DNA of 33,951 nucleotides from Candidatus Falkowbacteria bacterium CG10_big_fil_rev_8_21_14_0_10_39_11. Its GTDB lineage: Bacteria; Patescibacteriota; Patescibacteriia; UBA11705. Where the stretch lies: assembly GCA_002773615.1 (NCBI GenBank), contig PFAP01000005.1, forward strand, positions 1-33,951. The letters run 5' to 3'. The translations under genes and the position numbers were made by a program. The notes under the pieces were generated by a model that was not told the origin of the DNA, did not search any database, and was given only the letters and a program-made list of their open reading frames with translations. Shown one piece after another: positions 3,201 through 15,923 of this stretch. Position 1 is the stretch's first letter; each line of letters starts with the position of its first letter.

Positions 3201-3866
3201 TTAACTGGCATTATTTGTCTTATTCCAGTCACAGCTGTGGCTATTGTTGTTGTTTATCAATAAAATTTGTTTGACCTTACTTATCAAATCGTCTTGTTCT
3301 GACGTTGTGTTTTTAAGATCAGTATTGTCAATGTTGTAAACCAAGACTGGACATCGGGTAAAGGACTTTGCCCAGGCTTCATACATCGTGTTTAGCGTTA
3401 GGATATACTCAAGAGTCATATATTTTTCCACTTCCCGGTTCCTTTTCTGAATTCTCTCCCACAATCTTTGTGGTGATGCCTGCAAATAAACGATCAAGTC
3501 TGGCGGTGTCATAATATCAAGCAGCGATGTGTACAAATGTTCATATGTTCCCCACTCTTTGTCAGAAAATAATTTTTGTTTATACAAATTCATCGCGAAA
3601 ATTTCCGCATTCTCATAAAAACTTCGATCTTGGATTGCTGATTCGTTTCTTTGTGCCAAATCAAAATGGTGCTTGGCCATTTTACTCAAATAAAAAATTT
3701 GGGAGTGAAAAGCCCAACGTTTCATATCCTTATAAAAGTCTTCCAAGTATGGGTTCTCATCCACCGGCTCCGCTGCCAACGCCCACCCCAGCCGTTTTGA
3801 CAATATCTTGGACAAGGTTGTTTTTCCCGCTCCAATATTACCGGAAATTGTAATAAAATATCTCAT
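3201..3866 (-). CDS. Deoxynucleoside kinase (dNK/dGK family)
   Basis: 221 aa, close to the usual length for this family. It phosphorylates deoxynucleosides in the cytoplasm for dNTP salvage. The P-loop GNIGAGKT lies at residues 9-16, the substrate Glu is E33 (AAEPVDENPY), and the family DRS motif is D80-R81-S82 in DRSFYENAEIF. A LID-like Arg-rich segment ERIQKRNREVE comes later. Substrate preference (dA, dG or dC) cannot be told from sequence. The last ~20 residues are Asn-rich and probably disordered. It stands alone on the minus strand, 60 bases upstream of the SpoIID-like gene's predicted leader. Salvage kinases fit an organism that scavenges nucleosides. Confidence 0.9.
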   Translation of the reverse strand: MRYFITISGNIGAGKTTLSKILSKRLGWALAAEPVDENPYLEDFYKDMKRWAFHSQIFYLSKMAKHHFDLAQRNESAIQDRSFYENAEIFAMNLYKQKLFSDKEWGTYEHLYTSLLDIMTPPDLIVYLQASPQRLWERIQKRNREVEKYMTLEYILTLNTMYEAWAKSFTRCPVLVYNIDNTDLKNTTSEQDDLISKVKQILLINNNNSHSCDWNKTNNAS

Positions 3867-9349: not shown

Positions 9350-9390
9350 AGTGAAATGTTCTTTTAACAAAATATTATTAAGTCGCTATT

Positions 9391-9419
9391 ATTATACTAC
9401 AGATTTAGAAAAAAAGCAA
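9391..9419 (-). promoter_or_regulatory. nusB promoter
   Basis: On the minus strand: TTGCTT (9419-9414), a 17-bp spacer and TATAAT (9396-9391), about 40 bases before the nusB start. Confidence 0.7.
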
Positions 9420-9482
9420 GAGATTAATTATTTTCCTTAAATTAGGCAATCTATTTTTTTCTCACAGTTAAACATGGGGATA

Positions 9483-9511
9483 TTGACAAAAAATATAATT
9501 TATGTTAAGTT
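9483..9511 (+). promoter_or_regulatory. Promoter of the ubiquitin-like conjugation operon
   Basis: TTGACA at 9483-9488, a 17-bp spacer and TAAGTT at 9506-9511, about 100 bases upstream of the first start codon. It is the only good promoter seen before the four-gene operon. A second TTGACA at 9576-9581 has no matching -10. Confidence 0.7.
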
Positions 9512-9610
9512 TAAGCGTAAAAAAGGGAAATCATTAATTCGTAAATTTATCGAATAAGAGTTCCTTTCAGTTTTTTGACAACACAAAACCGACAAGCTCC
9601 GGAGGAAACC

Positions 9611-11905
9611 ATGGAACAAACAAAGAATTTTTGTTGGATTACCGCTCTTGTTGTTTTTCATCTGAGCATTTTGTTTTTGATCGGTTCTTATTATGCCTTG
9701 TACTTGAACAATTCTTCATTTGATCAGGAAATGTCTTCCTATTTGATCATTAATGAACCTGAGTATATCAAAGCTCGTGATTTGCCCGTTAACTTTAGTC
9801 ATTTTTTTAATTATGGCTATGTTGAATTTCCGCAAATTACAGATGTGGTTAATCCCATTTTGACCAAGACTCTTCACGATAGTTTTCTCAGTTGGAAGAC
9901 CAATTTTACTCATCGTACGATGGTTTGGCTTTTGGTTTTTCTGATGCTTGGTGCCGCCATTACTACATACCGATTTCTTAGATTGCGAAAAATACCATGG
10001 CTTATCTATTCAATGGCTGGTATTATCTTGCTGCAGATTGTAACACCATTAATTATTTCACATAGTTATGGTAAAAAGTTTGAGCAGCGACAAAAAGAGT
10101 TTATGGCCAGGGTGCATGAAATTAAGGATCAGTCCGGTGTAGTCAAGTTTAGTGCTCGAGGTTCCGTTCATGATTATCAAGTCGAAGACAAAGAGATGTT
10201 CAATGAAATTATCATGAAGATCGAAAGTGATTTTGCCGATAAGGGCAACAACCTTATTGGTAATTATAGTTTTCTGATTCTTGTTGCTGATAGTGGTATT
10301 GCTTTGCTCTCAGTCTTTATGTTCTTCGCTGGTTTGGGTTTACGACATGTTGTCGTGTGGATCGAAAGTGCTTTCCGAGCGGTGGCCGTTCGCCGTTATA
10401 TTGCCGGTAATCTGATTTTTGACGATCCGACAGTCATTGTTAGTCGTCGAGGTGTTCGCATCGTTCAAGATGAACGTCTCAACAATGGCGATTTTCACCG
10501 CGCAGTATTGGCCGAGCATACAGTACCTGACACCTTGGAGTTGCTGACCGGTCGTTCCGGCTTGGAACGCAATGTTAGAGATGTTTTGGAGCCAGTGTTG
10601 ACAGCCGAAACCTGGAACGGCTTTGCGCCTCCGGGAGAAGCGGCTCTGAGTGCCTACCTTGACAGCAACGTTCAGACATTTGGTCGAGCTGCTGACAAGG
10701 CCAGAAACGATACAACTGCGCTTTCTGTCATGAGTGATTCCCATCAGGTCTTGACACGGGTTTCCCGCGAATCGGTTCAGCACGCTCTGCGTACATGCTC
10801 CAAAGAATTCAAGGGTCTGTTTATGGGGCGACTGGAAGATCAAGTTGAAACCATGTCAGGCAAGCTTAATCGCCGTTTGGCCAGCTATATCGAGAGTCAG
10901 GGCGATGGTTTGACCAATACAACAGAACCGATTCCTGATGGTACTCGTTTCATGGTTCGCCGTGGCAATCATTTGAGTGTTGTTATCGAGCAGCGTCCAA
11001 CTATTCGCAGCCTTATCTTTACTGAAAGCTTCTTAGATATGGATTTGAATCATAATGGTCAATACAACAAGGCTGAATTTCTCATTGGTCGTGATACTGC
11101 CGCTATTCAAGTAGCTCTTCCTTACGTTGTTTTTATCATTCACTTTGTAAACGGAATGGCTCAGATCAATAATGTCCAGGTGTTTTATCGCAACGAAGCT
11201 TTGACCTCATTGGATGATGTTGTTTGTGGTTACAACTTGCCTAATATTGGTTCTAGTGGCAACATCTGTTTGCGAATGCCGAATGTTCAAGCTCGTACTG
11301 TCAGTGGTCAGATCAGAGAGATTCTTCAGTACTACTGGTCCAGTCGTTTCAACAATCACCTGCCTCAATCTTACCTTAAATATGCCAACCGCTTCCCGCA
11401 GCTGCAGTCAATTGCTACGTGGCATCGGCATTCTATGGAAGACCCCAATTTCGTGCTCCATCTTGATTGGGATCCAATCGGTACCGTTAGTGAGCATATT
11501 AATCGTGCTCAGCCAACCGATGTGAGCATTGCGGTTGATGTTAGTGATATTGTTCGAAGTACGGTTCTTGATTTGGGTGATGATTTGGTTTCTGGGATGG
11601 GCCCGGTTTTCAGTCGTTACATTAAAAACGGTTATCGTTCTGACCAGATGGTTGAAGCTTCTCTGGAACGGTTTCTGGAAACCATCCGCACTTTCTATCT
11701 TCGTCGTTGTCGTGAGTTGACTTTGGAAGAGTCTTACGATCCCGGTTCACTCGCCAAGTATGTTGATCAGCTGGTTCTGCGCAGCATCAAGGATGCAGTG
11801 AGTCAAAGATTGCAAAGCGGTTTGGATCAGGTTGACGTTGCCGGTCATATTGCGGCTGATTACGACTCTTTGATTGCTCGTCTTACCGGCCAAACTCAGG
11901 AGTGA
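9611..11905 (+). CDS. Membrane-anchored E2-like ubiquitin-conjugating protein (predicted)
   Basis: 764 aa. The ATG at 9611 is set by a GGAGGAAA Shine-Dalgarno at 9601-9608; an upstream in-frame TTG at 9575 has none. Predicted membrane segments lie at about residues 9-32, 104-120, 130-150 and 219-245. The basic RFLRLRK loop between segments 2 and 3 places both ends in the cytoplasm. Residues ~255-460 are helical with no recognised motif. Residues ~470-580 look like an E2 core: strands around IQVALPYVVFIIHF and VQVFYRN, then LPNIGSSGNICL at 543-554. Eukaryotic E2s have HPN, seven residues and the catalytic Cys followed by L. Here N545 and C553 keep that spacing and only His is replaced by Leu. 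The same region resembles PRTRC protein B/Prok-E2 families. Residues ~600-764 are helical. It is the first gene of an operon with JAB, E1-like and Ubl genes. The E2 call is motif plus context; catalysis is inferred. Confidence 0.75.
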   Translation: MEQTKNFCWITALVVFHLSILFLIGSYYALYLNNSSFDQEMSSYLIINEPEYIKARDLPVNFSHFFNYGYVEFPQITDVVNPILTKTLHDSFLSWKTNFTHRTMVWLLVFLMLGAAITTYRFLRLRKIPWLIYSMAGIILLQIVTPLIISHSYGKKFEQRQKEFMARVHEIKDQSGVVKFSARGSVHDYQVEDKEMFNEIIMKIESDFADKGNNLIGNYSFLILVADSGIALLSVFMFFAGLGLRHVVVWIESAFRAVAVRRYIAGNLIFDDPTVIVSRRGVRIVQDERLNNGDFHRAVLAEHTVPDTLELLTGRSGLERNVRDVLEPVLTAETWNGFAPPGEAALSAYLDSNVQTFGRAADKARNDTTALSVMSDSHQVLTRVSRESVQHALRTCSKEFKGLFMGRLEDQVETMSGKLNRRLASYIESQGDGLTNTTEPIPDGTRFMVRRGNHLSVVIEQRPTIRSLIFTESFLDMDLNHNGQYNKAEFLIGRDTAAIQVALPYVVFIIHFVNGMAQINNVQVFYRNEALTSLDDVVCGYNLPNIGSSGNICLRMPNVQARTVSGQIREILQYYWSSRFNNHLPQSYLKYANRFPQLQSIATWHRHSMEDPNFVLHLDWDPIGTVSEHINRAQPTDVSIAVDVSDIVRSTVLDLGDDLVSGMGPVFSRYIKNGYRSDQMVEASLERFLETIRTFYLRRCRELTLEESYDPGSLAKYVDQLVLRSIKDAVSQRLQSGLDQVDVAGHIAADYDSLIARLTGQTQE

Positions 11906-11914
11906 GGAGGTTGT

Positions 11915-12850
11915 ATGAGCGTACCGGTTATTATTGCTAACCCGGGTGTCAATTATCCTGATCAAACCTGTTATGTTGTTGGTGAAAATGGTATCTTTCT
12001 CCGTTGGCTTTCTCCATTGATTACCGCCATGATCCGCGTTGATTATTGCCAGACACTACAGCAAAGTTCTTTGGAAGTTTTACAAGAATATGCCCGCATC
12101 GGTATTAGGCCATTGCCGGCAAAGAAGTTTGCGCAGTGTTTTAACTTCTTTTTTGCTGCCTACAAGAGATTCTCAGCGGAATCCGGAGTGTTGATTTATT
12201 ATCATCGAGAAGAGAAGCGATTTCTTTTGTATGTTCCAAAGCAAAGGGTTAGTAGCTGCAATATTGATTATGAGCATAGACCAGATGTTCCCGGTTATGT
12301 CCTCATCGGTTCGATTCATTCTCACCATACCATGAACGCTTACCATTCAGGCACAGACCGTCATGATGAAGATTTTTTCAACGGTATCCATTTTACGGTT
12401 GGTCGGATTAATGAAGGGAACTTTTCTGTCGCCGCTTCGATTGTCGTCAATCATGTTCGCTTCCCGGTTGAACCGGCTGATTTTATCTGCGGACTGCGCA
12501 AGATCAAGCCTTGGTATGCCAAGCGAGCTGATGAAGAAGACTCAGCCGCTGCGCCAATTCCAGAGACCATGAGTCATATTGTGGCCGTTCCGGAACGGAC
12601 CAGTACCTTTAGAATCGAGAGTGGTCGTTATCGTTACCAACTTGATTGTCCTGGCACCAGTGATGTTTCTTGGCGCAAGTGTGGTTTCCCCAAGGGGTGG
12701 TTTGGGCAAGTTGCAAAATCTTCAGCTTGGGAAAATATCAAGGACGGTGTCAGTCGGGTTTTTCCCCGCCCATCGTCGTCTTCTCCTCCTGCGACTATTC
12801 ATAATGTCTCACTACTGGGTGCTGGAGAAGAGACATCATGCAAACACTAA
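11915..12850 (+). CDS. JAMM/JAB metallopeptidase of the ubiquitin-like operon
   Basis: 311 aa; the ATG at 11915 follows a GAGGAGG Shine-Dalgarno, 9 bases after the E2-like stop. The JAMM zinc site is complete: E89 in SAESGVLIYYH, then H135-x-H137-(x7)-S145-(xx)-D148. JAMM enzymes hydrolyse isopeptide or peptide bonds after the C-terminal Gly of ubiquitin-like proteins, so the expected role is deconjugation or trimming of the modifier encoded at 13559-13849. The first ~70 residues and a C-terminal ~110-residue region (Ser/Pro-rich near 285-297) are outside the JAB core and not recognised. The gene overlaps the E1-like gene by 13 bases, suggesting coupled translation. No membrane segment is seen, so it should be cytoplasmic. 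Confidence 0.88.
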   Translation: MSVPVIIANPGVNYPDQTCYVVGENGIFLRWLSPLITAMIRVDYCQTLQQSSLEVLQEYARIGIRPLPAKKFAQCFNFFFAAYKRFSAESGVLIYYHREEKRFLLYVPKQRVSSCNIDYEHRPDVPGYVLIGSIHSHHTMNAYHSGTDRHDEDFFNGIHFTVGRINEGNFSVAASIVVNHVRFPVEPADFICGLRKIKPWYAKRADEEDSAAAPIPETMSHIVAVPERTSTFRIESGRYRYQLDCPGTSDVSWRKCGFPKGWFGQVAKSSAWENIKDGVSRVFPRPSSSSPPATIHNVSLLGAGEETSCKH

Positions 12851-13509
12851 AAGTCATTGGACTTGGCGGCATTGCCGAGTATTTGTTGCCCCCACTGTTA
12901 CGTTACTTGACATATTCTGATTATTCTGATACCGTTGTAACCTTGGTTGATGGCGACTCTTTTGAGCCCAAAAATCTCTCCCGCCAGAGTTTTCGACATA
13001 TCGGCAACAAGGCTGAGGTTCGAGCTACTGAGCTTAGAGAGGTTTTTCCCCAATTGACAATCAAATACATCGGTGAGTATGTTGGTGATGCCAACGTCAA
13101 TATGGTTATTAATGAAGGTGATGTAGTTCTTCTGTGCGTTGACAATCATAGTACTCGGCGTTTGGTTGGAGCTCGATGCGAAGCGCTCGATAATATTTGT
13201 TTGATCACGGGTGGTAATGAGTATACTGATGGTAATGTCATTGTCTTCGTAAAAAAAGACGGTAACGCTTTGAAGCCGACAATCACCAGATATCATCCGG
13301 AGATTGCTGAAGCCGAAGGTGACCACCCTCACGATATTGGTTGTGATATTCAAGTGGTTAGCTCTCCTCAGTTGGTTCCCATGAATAATCTTATTTCCGG
13401 TTTGATGCTATCAACTTTATATGTTTATCTTGTCGATTGTTTGAACTATTGTGAAATTCAAATTGATATGAAGCGAGGCTCAGCTCGAGCCTTGAGATTG
13501 CCTCTATAA
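12838..13509 (+). CDS. ThiF/E1-like ubiquitin-activating enzyme
   Basis: 223 aa, a minimal single-domain E1. These enzymes adenylate the C-terminal Gly of a ubiquitin-like protein with ATP. The nucleotide-binding loop is IGLGGIA at residues 7-13, followed by VDGDSFEPKNLSRQSF (the Asp, Asn and Arg-Gln typical of ThiF/MoeB/E1) and DVVLLCVDNHSTRR, matching the family's D(x)TDN..TR motif. C169 in DIGCDIQVVSSP sits where E1-family proteins carry their Cys before the final helix, so it is a candidate thioester residue. The CxxC zinc pairs of many ThiF/MoeB proteins are absent. The start overlaps the JAB gene by 13 bases, with GGAG upstream. Its length and position next to JAB and Ubl genes resemble the PRTRC ThiF gene. 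Confidence 0.9.
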   Translation: MQTLKVIGLGGIAEYLLPPLLRYLTYSDYSDTVVTLVDGDSFEPKNLSRQSFRHIGNKAEVRATELREVFPQLTIKYIGEYVGDANVNMVINEGDVVLLCVDNHSTRRLVGARCEALDNICLITGGNEYTDGNVIVFVKKDGNALKPTITRYHPEIAEAEGDHPHDIGCDIQVVSSPQLVPMNNLISGLMLSTLYVYLVDCLNYCEIQIDMKRGSARALRLPL

Positions 13510-13558
13510 ATGATGACATTGATTGAAGCTGGCCAAAAACAACCATAGGAGGAAGAAG

Positions 13559-13849
13559 ATGGCTAGAGACACTCATGTTGCTGATCGTGAGGAGGCTATT
13601 GCCAATAATGAGGTCTTTGTTTCATTTGGTGATTCTACCAACGTCAAGTATGCTCTTCGCCGACAGGGTGGGATGATGACTGTTGGTGACGTTATGCGAG
13701 TAGCTCGAGTTTCCCAAGGGATCCCAACCAAGGTTCAGACCGTTATTCTGCATCGTCAGGGAGTTGAGCCTCGTCAGGTACAGCTCAATGAAGTGTTGGA
13801 GCCGGGTGATCACGTTGAGCCTCTGCGTCCGGCTGGTCGCAAGGGCTAG
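13559..13849 (+). CDS. Small ubiquitin-like modifier ending in Gly
   Basis: 96 aa; the ATG at 13559 is set by AGGAGG six bases upstream, in preference to an in-frame ATG at 13523. After a ~15-residue charged N-terminus, the sequence fits a beta-grasp pattern: a strand EVFVSFG, a central helix TVGDVMRVARVSQ, strands TVILHRQGVEP and RQVQLNE, then VLEPGDHVEPLRPAGRKG. The phrase 'L.PGD.V' followed by a short flexible tail is typical of ThiS/MoaD and PRTRC-C-type Ubls. The last residue is Gly in RKG rather than GG, and the tail is exposed as translated, so no proteolytic maturation is needed. Its last place in an E2-JAB-E1-Ubl operon supports the call. Beta-grasp similarity is judged by eye. Confidence 0.82.
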   Translation: MARDTHVADREEAIANNEVFVSFGDSTNVKYALRRQGGMMTVGDVMRVARVSQGIPTKVQTVILHRQGVEPRQVQLNEVLEPGDHVEPLRPAGRKG

Positions 13850-13858
13850 AAGTTTGTA

Positions 13859-13887
13859 AGTACTGATAATATTCAGTACTTTTTTTA
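13859..13887 (+). terminator. Terminator of the ubiquitin-like operon
   Basis: The stem AGTACTGA/TTCAGTACT around a short loop is followed by a seven-base T run, 10 bases after the Ubl stop codon. Together with the promoter at 9483 it delimits a four-gene transcription unit. Confidence 0.9.
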
Positions 13888-13911
13888 TTCATAAAAGCCC
13901 ACTTTGATCAA

Positions 13912-13940
13912 TTGACTGTCTCCCCAAAACCTGCTATGAT
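13912..13940 (+). promoter_or_regulatory. Promoter of the LysM/M23 gene
   Basis: TTGACT at 13912-13917, a 17-bp spacer and TATGAT at 13935-13940, 36 bases before the start codon. Confidence 0.75.
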
Positions 13941-13976
13941 TTTTAATGAACCTATATAAATTAGCAATATTTACAT

Positions 13977-15373: not shown

Positions 15374-15401
15374 AACAGCGCTTCTAAGCGCGGTTTTTGT
15401 T
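15374..15401. terminator. Bidirectional terminator
   Basis: The stem GCGCTT/AAGCGC has T-rich flanks in both orientations. It serves the M23 gene on the plus strand and the toxin gene on the minus strand, whose stop codon lies at its edge. Confidence 0.75.
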
Positions 15402-15923
15402 TATCTGATTGAACTATAGTGCTGATTAAAGCTGTCTTCATTAAATTTATAAAAGCCAATGTTGATAATTTCTTCCTTTGTGTCAATTGTCAAAACATTT
15501 AGTCTGTCGTGGATGATTTGTGGGAAATCTTTGTTGTTTATTGTTGCCAATAATAAAGTTTTAGAATGAAGTTTTAAAAAGGCTGATAAGTAACAGTCAA
15601 CAAAAGAAATCCCATTGTTACTCTTATTTGAATAAATATTTGATATTTCAATTGCGTTTTTATAAATGTTGGGCATTAGTGGAAGTGTAGCCTCTGATAG
15701 CTTATTTAGAACGGCTAGTTTTGCTAGAATATTTTTTTGTTTTACAGCCTCGCAAAAATTCAAATTGAACAAACTCATTAATCACAGGTGTCGCATGATT
15801 ACTTTTTAGAATATTAAAAAAATCATCAAAATATTGAGATTCACTATACTTTAGTGCGTTTGCTAGAATGCATGTATCAAGTAATACATGCTGCCTTTCT
15901 AGGAATTTAAAACTGGTTGACAT
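15401..15923 (-). pseudogene. PIN-domain toxin gene with a frameshift
   Basis: Two overlapping frames make one PIN-like protein. The first (ATG at 15923) gives HVLLDTCILANAL, with the first PIN Asp, and EFVQFEFLRGC. The second continues with ILAKLAVLNKL, then GISFVDCYLSAFL, the second acidic motif, and LLLATINNKDF, the typical PIN C-terminal strand. The frames join at a run of seven T residues on the plus strand (15732-15738), consistent with a single-base indel. PIN toxins are Mg-dependent RNases. The rejoined product would be about 173 aa. The 49-aa gene directly upstream overlaps its start and is the probable antitoxin. A real lesion, a slippage switch and an assembly error are all possible. 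Confidence 0.75.

Follow-up and report, generated by a model that had tools for sequence, protein, structure and literature searches.

A candidate ubiquitin-like conjugation cassette inserted in a Patescibacteria chromosome and shared with large phages

What would a set of ubiquitin-pathway genes do in the chromosome of a Patescibacteria-type cell, and how would it have come to lie there? Conjugation of ubiquitin-like proteins (Ubls) in bacteria is known mainly from operons of mobile elements and from a few defence systems. The question is raised by a cassette of four plus-strand genes at 9611–13849 of a 33,951-nucleotide stretch (hereafter the window, meaning the whole of the DNA analysed; contig C51, PFAP01000005.1) from Candidatus Falkowbacteria bacterium CG10_big_fil_rev_8_21_14_0_10_39_11, whose assembly (GCA_002773615.1; 1.10 Mb, 85% complete) is of Patescibacteria type. 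Judged from sequence, the biochemistry of this cassette is very probably reversible Ubl conjugation, and we consider it likely, with somewhat less assurance, that it is a module of the PRTRC / Iyer class 6d kind with a membrane-tethered E2 (conjugating enzyme), of horizontal origin and shared with large phages. The features on which the argument turns are:

9611–11905, plus strand: E2-like conjugating enzyme (764 amino acids; open reading frame (ORF) with an ATG at 9611 behind a ggagga Shine-Dalgarno sequence)
11915–12850, plus strand: JAMM/JAB metalloprotease (311 amino acids; E89-H135-S-H137-x7-S145-x2-D148)
12838–13509, plus strand: E1-like ThiF/MoeB-type adenylyltransferase (223 amino acids; no separate Cys domain)
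13559–13849, plus strand: single-domain beta-grasp Ubl (96 amino acids; tail ...RPAGRKG; own Shine-Dalgarno sequence)
13858–13887, plus strand: intrinsic terminator (9-bp stem and 6-nt loop at 13858–13881, then a T-run)
9381–13974, no strand assigned: segment inserted relative to six related genomes (from nusB–M23/LysM spacing, DNA similarity and GC content)

The four proteins and their active sites

The preliminary description of this DNA had proposed one promoter, four tight genes and one terminator, encoding every enzyme class of a ubiquitin pathway except an E3 (ligase). Gene identities, order, strand and tight spacing are as it described, the 13-bp overlap of the JAMM and E1 genes is present at 12838–12850, the single terminator was found, and a full E1–E2–JAMM–Ubl set is supported, no E3 being recognisable among the operon's genes. 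The promoter was not borne out: a perfect −35 element (TTGACA) lies at 9485 with no acceptable −10, a consensus scan lists no site there, and promoter-like sites around the cassette are, in that scan, no more frequent than in shuffled sequence. Homologous loci keep the four genes together far above chance, as the pathway reading had required, with all four (by profiles of all four parts) in 12 of 17 cellular loci and in 61 of 71 non-redundant loci from IMG/VR, several of the incomplete cassettes being clipped by contig ends. The viral loci were retrieved with the E1 profile (53 loci) and the JAMM profile (49), so that co-occurrence of JAMM and E1 is partly selected there, E2 and Ubl not having served as query profiles.

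All five residues initially read as the JAMM site (E89, H135, H137, S145 and D148) are present and follow the catalytic JAMM/MPN+ pattern E...HxH-x7-S-x2-D; across 86 homologues E89 is conserved in 97% and each of the others in 100%. The nearest NCBIfam family is PRTRC_A (E 1.4e-10), Prok-JAB is matched just below its cut-off (E 4e-5), and a sequence search of the PDB with the JAMM profile returned nothing meaningful. Past a variable linker, the C-terminus of nearly every JAMM carries a PxxW..KV-like motif whose Trp is 98% conserved (W262 in the window) and at which one of the partners (E1, E2 or Ubl) may dock. The E1 likewise has the motifs first reported for it (GLGGIA, DGD, NLSRQ and VDN), together with K58, and passes the Pfam ThiF cut-off (E 1.3e-19), with PRTRC_ThiF among its weaker NCBIfam matches (E 8.5e-9; 35.1 bits, below the cut-off of 144.75). 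Across 89 sequences, D38, N46, R49, Q50, K58, D102 and C169 are conserved in 97–98% and D40 in 95%; C169, at the crossover-loop position, is retained in 98%.

The small protein, proposed to be beta-grasp-like and Gly-ending, does end in Gly, and its AlphaFold2 (AF2) model has the ubiquitin fold (predicted local distance difference test score, pLDDT, 80; bb-a-bbb order), with the Raf Ras-binding domain, TGS, SUMO and ubiquitin as top Foldseek matches in the PDB (probability 1.00). A PDB sequence search with the Ubl profile gave nothing meaningful; relatives match ThiS and TGS, and a Nomurabacteria Ubl passes ThiS. Among 81 distinct sequences the Lys of the C-terminal GxKG is conserved in 100% and the Gly in 92%; 52 end exactly in KG and 5 in KA or KL, while most of the other 24 extend a little past KG. 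These extensions comprise 1–6 residues, often a single Cys (as in the phage loci L038, L051, L082, L092, L094, L095, L099, L100 and L103), and a Cys beyond KG implies that trimming would be needed prior to activation. The Ubls of L031–L034 and many phage Ubls also carry an N-terminal segment of ~40 residues that is SAP/HeH-like (helix-extension-helix).

In the E2, residues 1–250 with four predicted transmembrane (TM) helices precede an E2 core at ~438–632 and a helical C-terminal tail, in keeping with the large membrane protein first suggested. Its catalytic-type Cys553 (counted from the ATG at 9611; C565 of the longer, TTG-start ORF) sits in LPNIGSSGNICL, an LPN-x7-C active site, whose Pro-Asn and Asn-to-Cys distance of 8 match the classical HPN...C site. 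This Cys is invariant in 57 aligned relatives and present in 96% of 91 copies, the Asn of LPN in 94% of the 91. Prok-E2_D (Pfam PF14460) is the sole family matched by 33 of the 57 aligned relatives, with the Moraniibacteriota E2 (L006) exceeding the gathering cut-off (28.2 against 25 bits); by way of these relatives' profile matches, the enzyme probably belongs to the Prok-E2_D superfamily. The AF2 model reaches pLDDT >90 across most of the ~190-residue core, and its first Foldseek match is the E2 of an E2–ubiquitin/RBR complex (5tte_E), CDC34 and Rad6 also being listed; a PDB sequence search with the E2 profile found nothing. An E2 fold around C553 is accordingly backed by the family profiles and weakly by Foldseek. 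Two E2 genes are present in some cellular loci, and in three of these (L031, L032 and L034) large E2-domain proteins are encoded next to each other, of which the second has no active-site Cys, which suggests an active/inactive pair; the Cys-less copies are analogous to eukaryotic UEV proteins.

Hydropathy and charge of the window's E2, with RFLRLRK in loop 2 and an Arg-rich stretch past TM4, fit an N-in/C-in topology that would place the E2 domain in the cytoplasm. A membrane domain occurs on E2 in 2 of the 17 cellular loci examined and in 0 phage loci, where E2 has no TM helices and the E2 domain lies near the N-terminus of a protein of ~850 amino acids. As most relatives' E2s are soluble, membrane targeting appears to be a local addition. 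The other membrane-tethered E2, that of L029, also has four predicted helices with a similar charge pattern; no BLASTP similarity links its membrane domain to that of the window's E2.

Insertion in the chromosome and copies in phages

In six related genomes, nusB and an M23/LysM gene are divergent neighbours about 170–310 bp apart; in the window they lie 4.6 kb apart, with the cassette in between. DNA similarity to a same-genus genome stops at ~9380 and restarts at ~13975, and the insert has 43.5% GC against ~38% in its flanks (the M23 gene itself, 42%). Neither a target-site duplication nor an inverted repeat was found at its borders. Since the nusB–M23 site is empty in the six relatives, the window's cassette is a horizontally acquired insert.

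Distribution in cells is patchy (1–3%): of 380 genomes sampled across the phylum, 5 have the cassette according to an E1-profile survey, as do 10 of 381 in the class, both counts taking in the window's own genome; the single same-genus genome and the single same-family genome surveyed lack it. All E1 relatives bearing names among the searched genome contigs are from Patescibacteria metagenome-assembled genomes. Elsewhere, with genes named by eye, the cassette sits by alaS and ribosomal-protein genes (L029), ychF (L030), recA (L014) or pyrG (L031); at L014 (1–5871) two tandem E2–JAMM–E1 sets lie by recA, and the Ubl profile recognises no Ubl there. Housekeeping genes flank the cassette in the window, and none of its neighbours was recognised as a phage gene. 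That cellular copies are mis-binned phage contigs is ruled out by such flanks for the window and several other loci.

In the viral loci the usual order, E2–JAMM–E1–Ubl, forms a near-invariant block, around which a second ThiF-like gene (54 loci), RNA polymerase beta'-like (54) and beta-like (53) genes, a radical SAM gene (48) and an SbcC-like gene (40) recur. Across L036–L136 the recurrent order reads SbcC-like, radical SAM, two small genes, E2–JAMM–E1–Ubl, ThiF-like and RNA polymerase beta'-/beta-like. A terminase is present in 24 of 36 sampled viral records (over the cut-off in 21), so that these contigs are mostly real large tailed phages, and mis-called bacterial DNA is ruled out for most of them. 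PHROGs yielded no match for E2, JAMM or Ubl.

JAMM and E1 were also recognised together in Salmonella phage Arash, Bacillus phage vB_BauM_KLEB27-3, Vibrio phage D69 and Acinetobacter phage ME3; among these cultured phages E2 was recognised in Arash and KLEB27-3 and weakly in D69. Arash (L163, OQ632216.1, 172978–180819) has a divergent E2, a JAMM, an E1 and a small protein ending in GTKG, whose ORF obtains only a weak score with the Ubl profile, all annotated merely as structural or hypothetical. The Arash paper reports Gp246–249 and Gp251 in purified virions. Because its numbering and the GenBank structural labels agree incompletely, the proteome takes in as many as 116 of the phage's 252 proteins, and carry-over is mentioned by the authors, the case for cassette-region proteins as part of the virion is suggestive only.

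Evolutionarily, the E1 tree (90 rows) mixes cellular and viral branches, with 4–5 cell/virus label changes, and an exchange of the cassette between cells and phages is supported. More tentatively, a complete and reversible Ubl pathway may have become fixed in a broad, largely uncultivated set of RNA-polymerase-encoding large phages, with which Patescibacteria repeatedly exchanged it, the window's E2 having been re-tooled for membrane-directed conjugation by fusion of a four-helix anchor.

Farther along the window (15401–15923, minus strand), two overlapping ORFs resemble, on visual inspection, a single PIN-domain-like gene broken by a frame change, possibly a pseudogene or an assembly error; the second part has no Pfam match.

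Proposed mechanism and competing explanations

The gene set with its homologies, the conserved active sites, the Ubl fold, the insertion and the spread among phages are computed results; from here on, the catalytic steps, the topology, the substrate and the role are inferred. Synthesised with a free Gly at its C-terminus, the Ubl of the window would not depend on the JAMM for maturation, and the JAMM would mainly strip conjugates, while in relatives with 1–6 residues past KG it would also trim the Ubl. The E1 would adenylate the Gly and then take the Ubl as a thioester, probably on C169. Cys553 in the E2 would then accept the Ubl, assisted by the Asn of an LPN that stands where classical E2s have HPN. 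The four helices at its N-terminus would anchor the E2 in the cytoplasmic membrane with the catalytic domain facing the cytoplasm, and the enzyme would attach the Ubl to lysines of targets close to the membrane, no dedicated E3 being required. The module may pass horizontally between Patescibacteria and large phages, and its most likely role would be in conflict with phages or other replicons, with defence or conflict and a phage-derived modification about equally likely.

Several results weigh against such a conjugation module. Taken on its own, the window's E2 has no meaningful Pfam match, Prok-E2_D included, and its Foldseek matches are non-significant (E about 0.6–2, probability about 0.1–0.2); its Ubl has no meaningful Pfam match and passes no curated cut-off; and its JAMM scores 41.1 bits for PRTRC_A, below the cut-off of 101.8. 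No PADLOC model fits the set, which draws only weak E1–E2 matches to the E1, and no defence genes were recognised among the window's neighbours. Finally, no direction of transfer could be read from the E1 tree, whose deep nodes lack support and in which the window stands by itself on a long branch.

Among the other explanations, an antiphage defence operon of the Bil-like kind, attaching the Ubl to virion proteins of an infecting phage, is possible though doubtful. It would share the enzyme set, and horizontal insertion, patchy distribution and a compact operon all speak for it; however, the anatomy is not that of Bil (single Ubl, minimal E1, no CEHH), the set fits none of the PADLOC models, and the module also abounds in phages. 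A phage-derived module, kept in or passing through the chromosome and serving in its phage version to modify virion or host proteins, also strikes us as a minority possibility. Some 70 non-redundant IMG/VR loci, their terminases, a near-fixed place beside RNA polymerase subunits, and the Arash gene set with the region's proteins listed in its virion proteome all favour it. Yet the housekeeping flanks without a recognised phage gene, the N-terminal TM architecture of the window's E2, unlike that of phage E2s, the directionless mixing in the E1 tree and the carry-over caution attached to Arash count on the other side.

A sulphur-carrier system of the ThiS/MoaD–ThiF type, in which the E1 would thiocarboxylate the small protein as a sulphur donor and nothing would be tagged, is improbable. 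The compact ThiF/MoeB-type E1 without a Cys domain and the ThiS and TGS matches of Ubl relatives suit it, but in nearly all loci the conserved partners include a Prok-E2_D protein with its Cys and a JAMM with a complete catalytic site, and neither the cassette nor its annotated neighbours include a recognisable rhodanese, cysteine desulphurase or thiazole/molybdopterin gene. Atg8-like conjugation of the Ubl to a lipid amine by the membrane-anchored E2, an idea already raised in the preliminary description, is compatible with the four predicted TM helices and a free C-terminal Gly but highly improbable, as nothing in the analysis points specifically to lipid and most relatives' E2s are soluble.

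Comparison with known systems

Related gene sets had been acknowledged at the outset, together with the absence of a PRTRC partner nearby and the possibility of a distinct lineage. For ParB the absence stands: no PRTRC ParB lies near the cassette, the genome's only ParB match (contig C53; 135 against 278.6 bits) is as in control genomes, and PRTRC_D has no match in the window's own, 85% complete assembly, the control genomes giving none either. A distinct lineage is not supported in the form proposed, since the JAMM, the E1 and (via relatives) the E2 fall by profiles in the PRTRC / Iyer-6d superfamily, and the cassette is common in large phage contigs. With PRTRC (NCBIfam TIGR03734–03739 and 03741–03742) it shares an adjacent JAMM (PRTRC_A), E1 (PRTRC_ThiF), E2 (PRTRC_B, Prok-E2_D) and small Ubl; it differs in scores far under the curated cut-offs (for PRTRC_B, no match for the window's E2, with relatives reaching 23 against 131.5 bits) and in the membrane domain of its E2.

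With Iyer class 6d (PMC1779556) it shares a stand-alone E1, a JAB with an N-terminal extension, an E2 with a conserved Cys and a small stand-alone Ubl with a C-terminal Gly, all in one operon. In that class a His that follows the E2 Cys is absolutely conserved, and the operon has an additional alpha-helical gene (PMC1779556), whereas in the 91 E2s here no His column downstream of the Cys is conserved in at least 60%, and the window's cassette has no alpha-helical ORF, an 87-amino-acid helical-looking gene being seen in L006 and L007 only. Bil (BilABCD) similarly unites E1, E2, JAMM and Ubl within one operon, but its BilA is a tandem Ubl, its E1 has inactive and active adenylation domains plus a Cys domain, and its E2 bears a CEHH motif (PMC11354881), in contrast to the single Ubl domain, the 223-amino-acid E1 and the lack of a His after C565 at CEHH spacing in the window. 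Unlike CBASS and 6A-type E1–E2 fusions, E1 and E2 are separate genes here. For the corresponding genes of cultured phages identity is about 25–40%, over parts only and with no TM domain noted on E2, and the records consulted do not identify them as a conjugation cassette.

A literature search, with most subscription journals outside its reach, found no account of Ubl cassettes in Patescibacteria or large phages. The cassette places the pathway in chromosomes of Patescibacteria and, which is the greater surprise, in dozens of large phage contigs, where it forms a conserved block beside the RNA polymerase; the membrane-tethered E2 architecture is confined to two of the loci examined. Were conjugation shown, phages themselves would be users of ubiquitin-like tagging, and the question of its target could be tested in a cultured phage such as Arash; the cassette thereby lends itself to studies of the movement and the working of ubiquitin-like tagging in bacteria and viruses.

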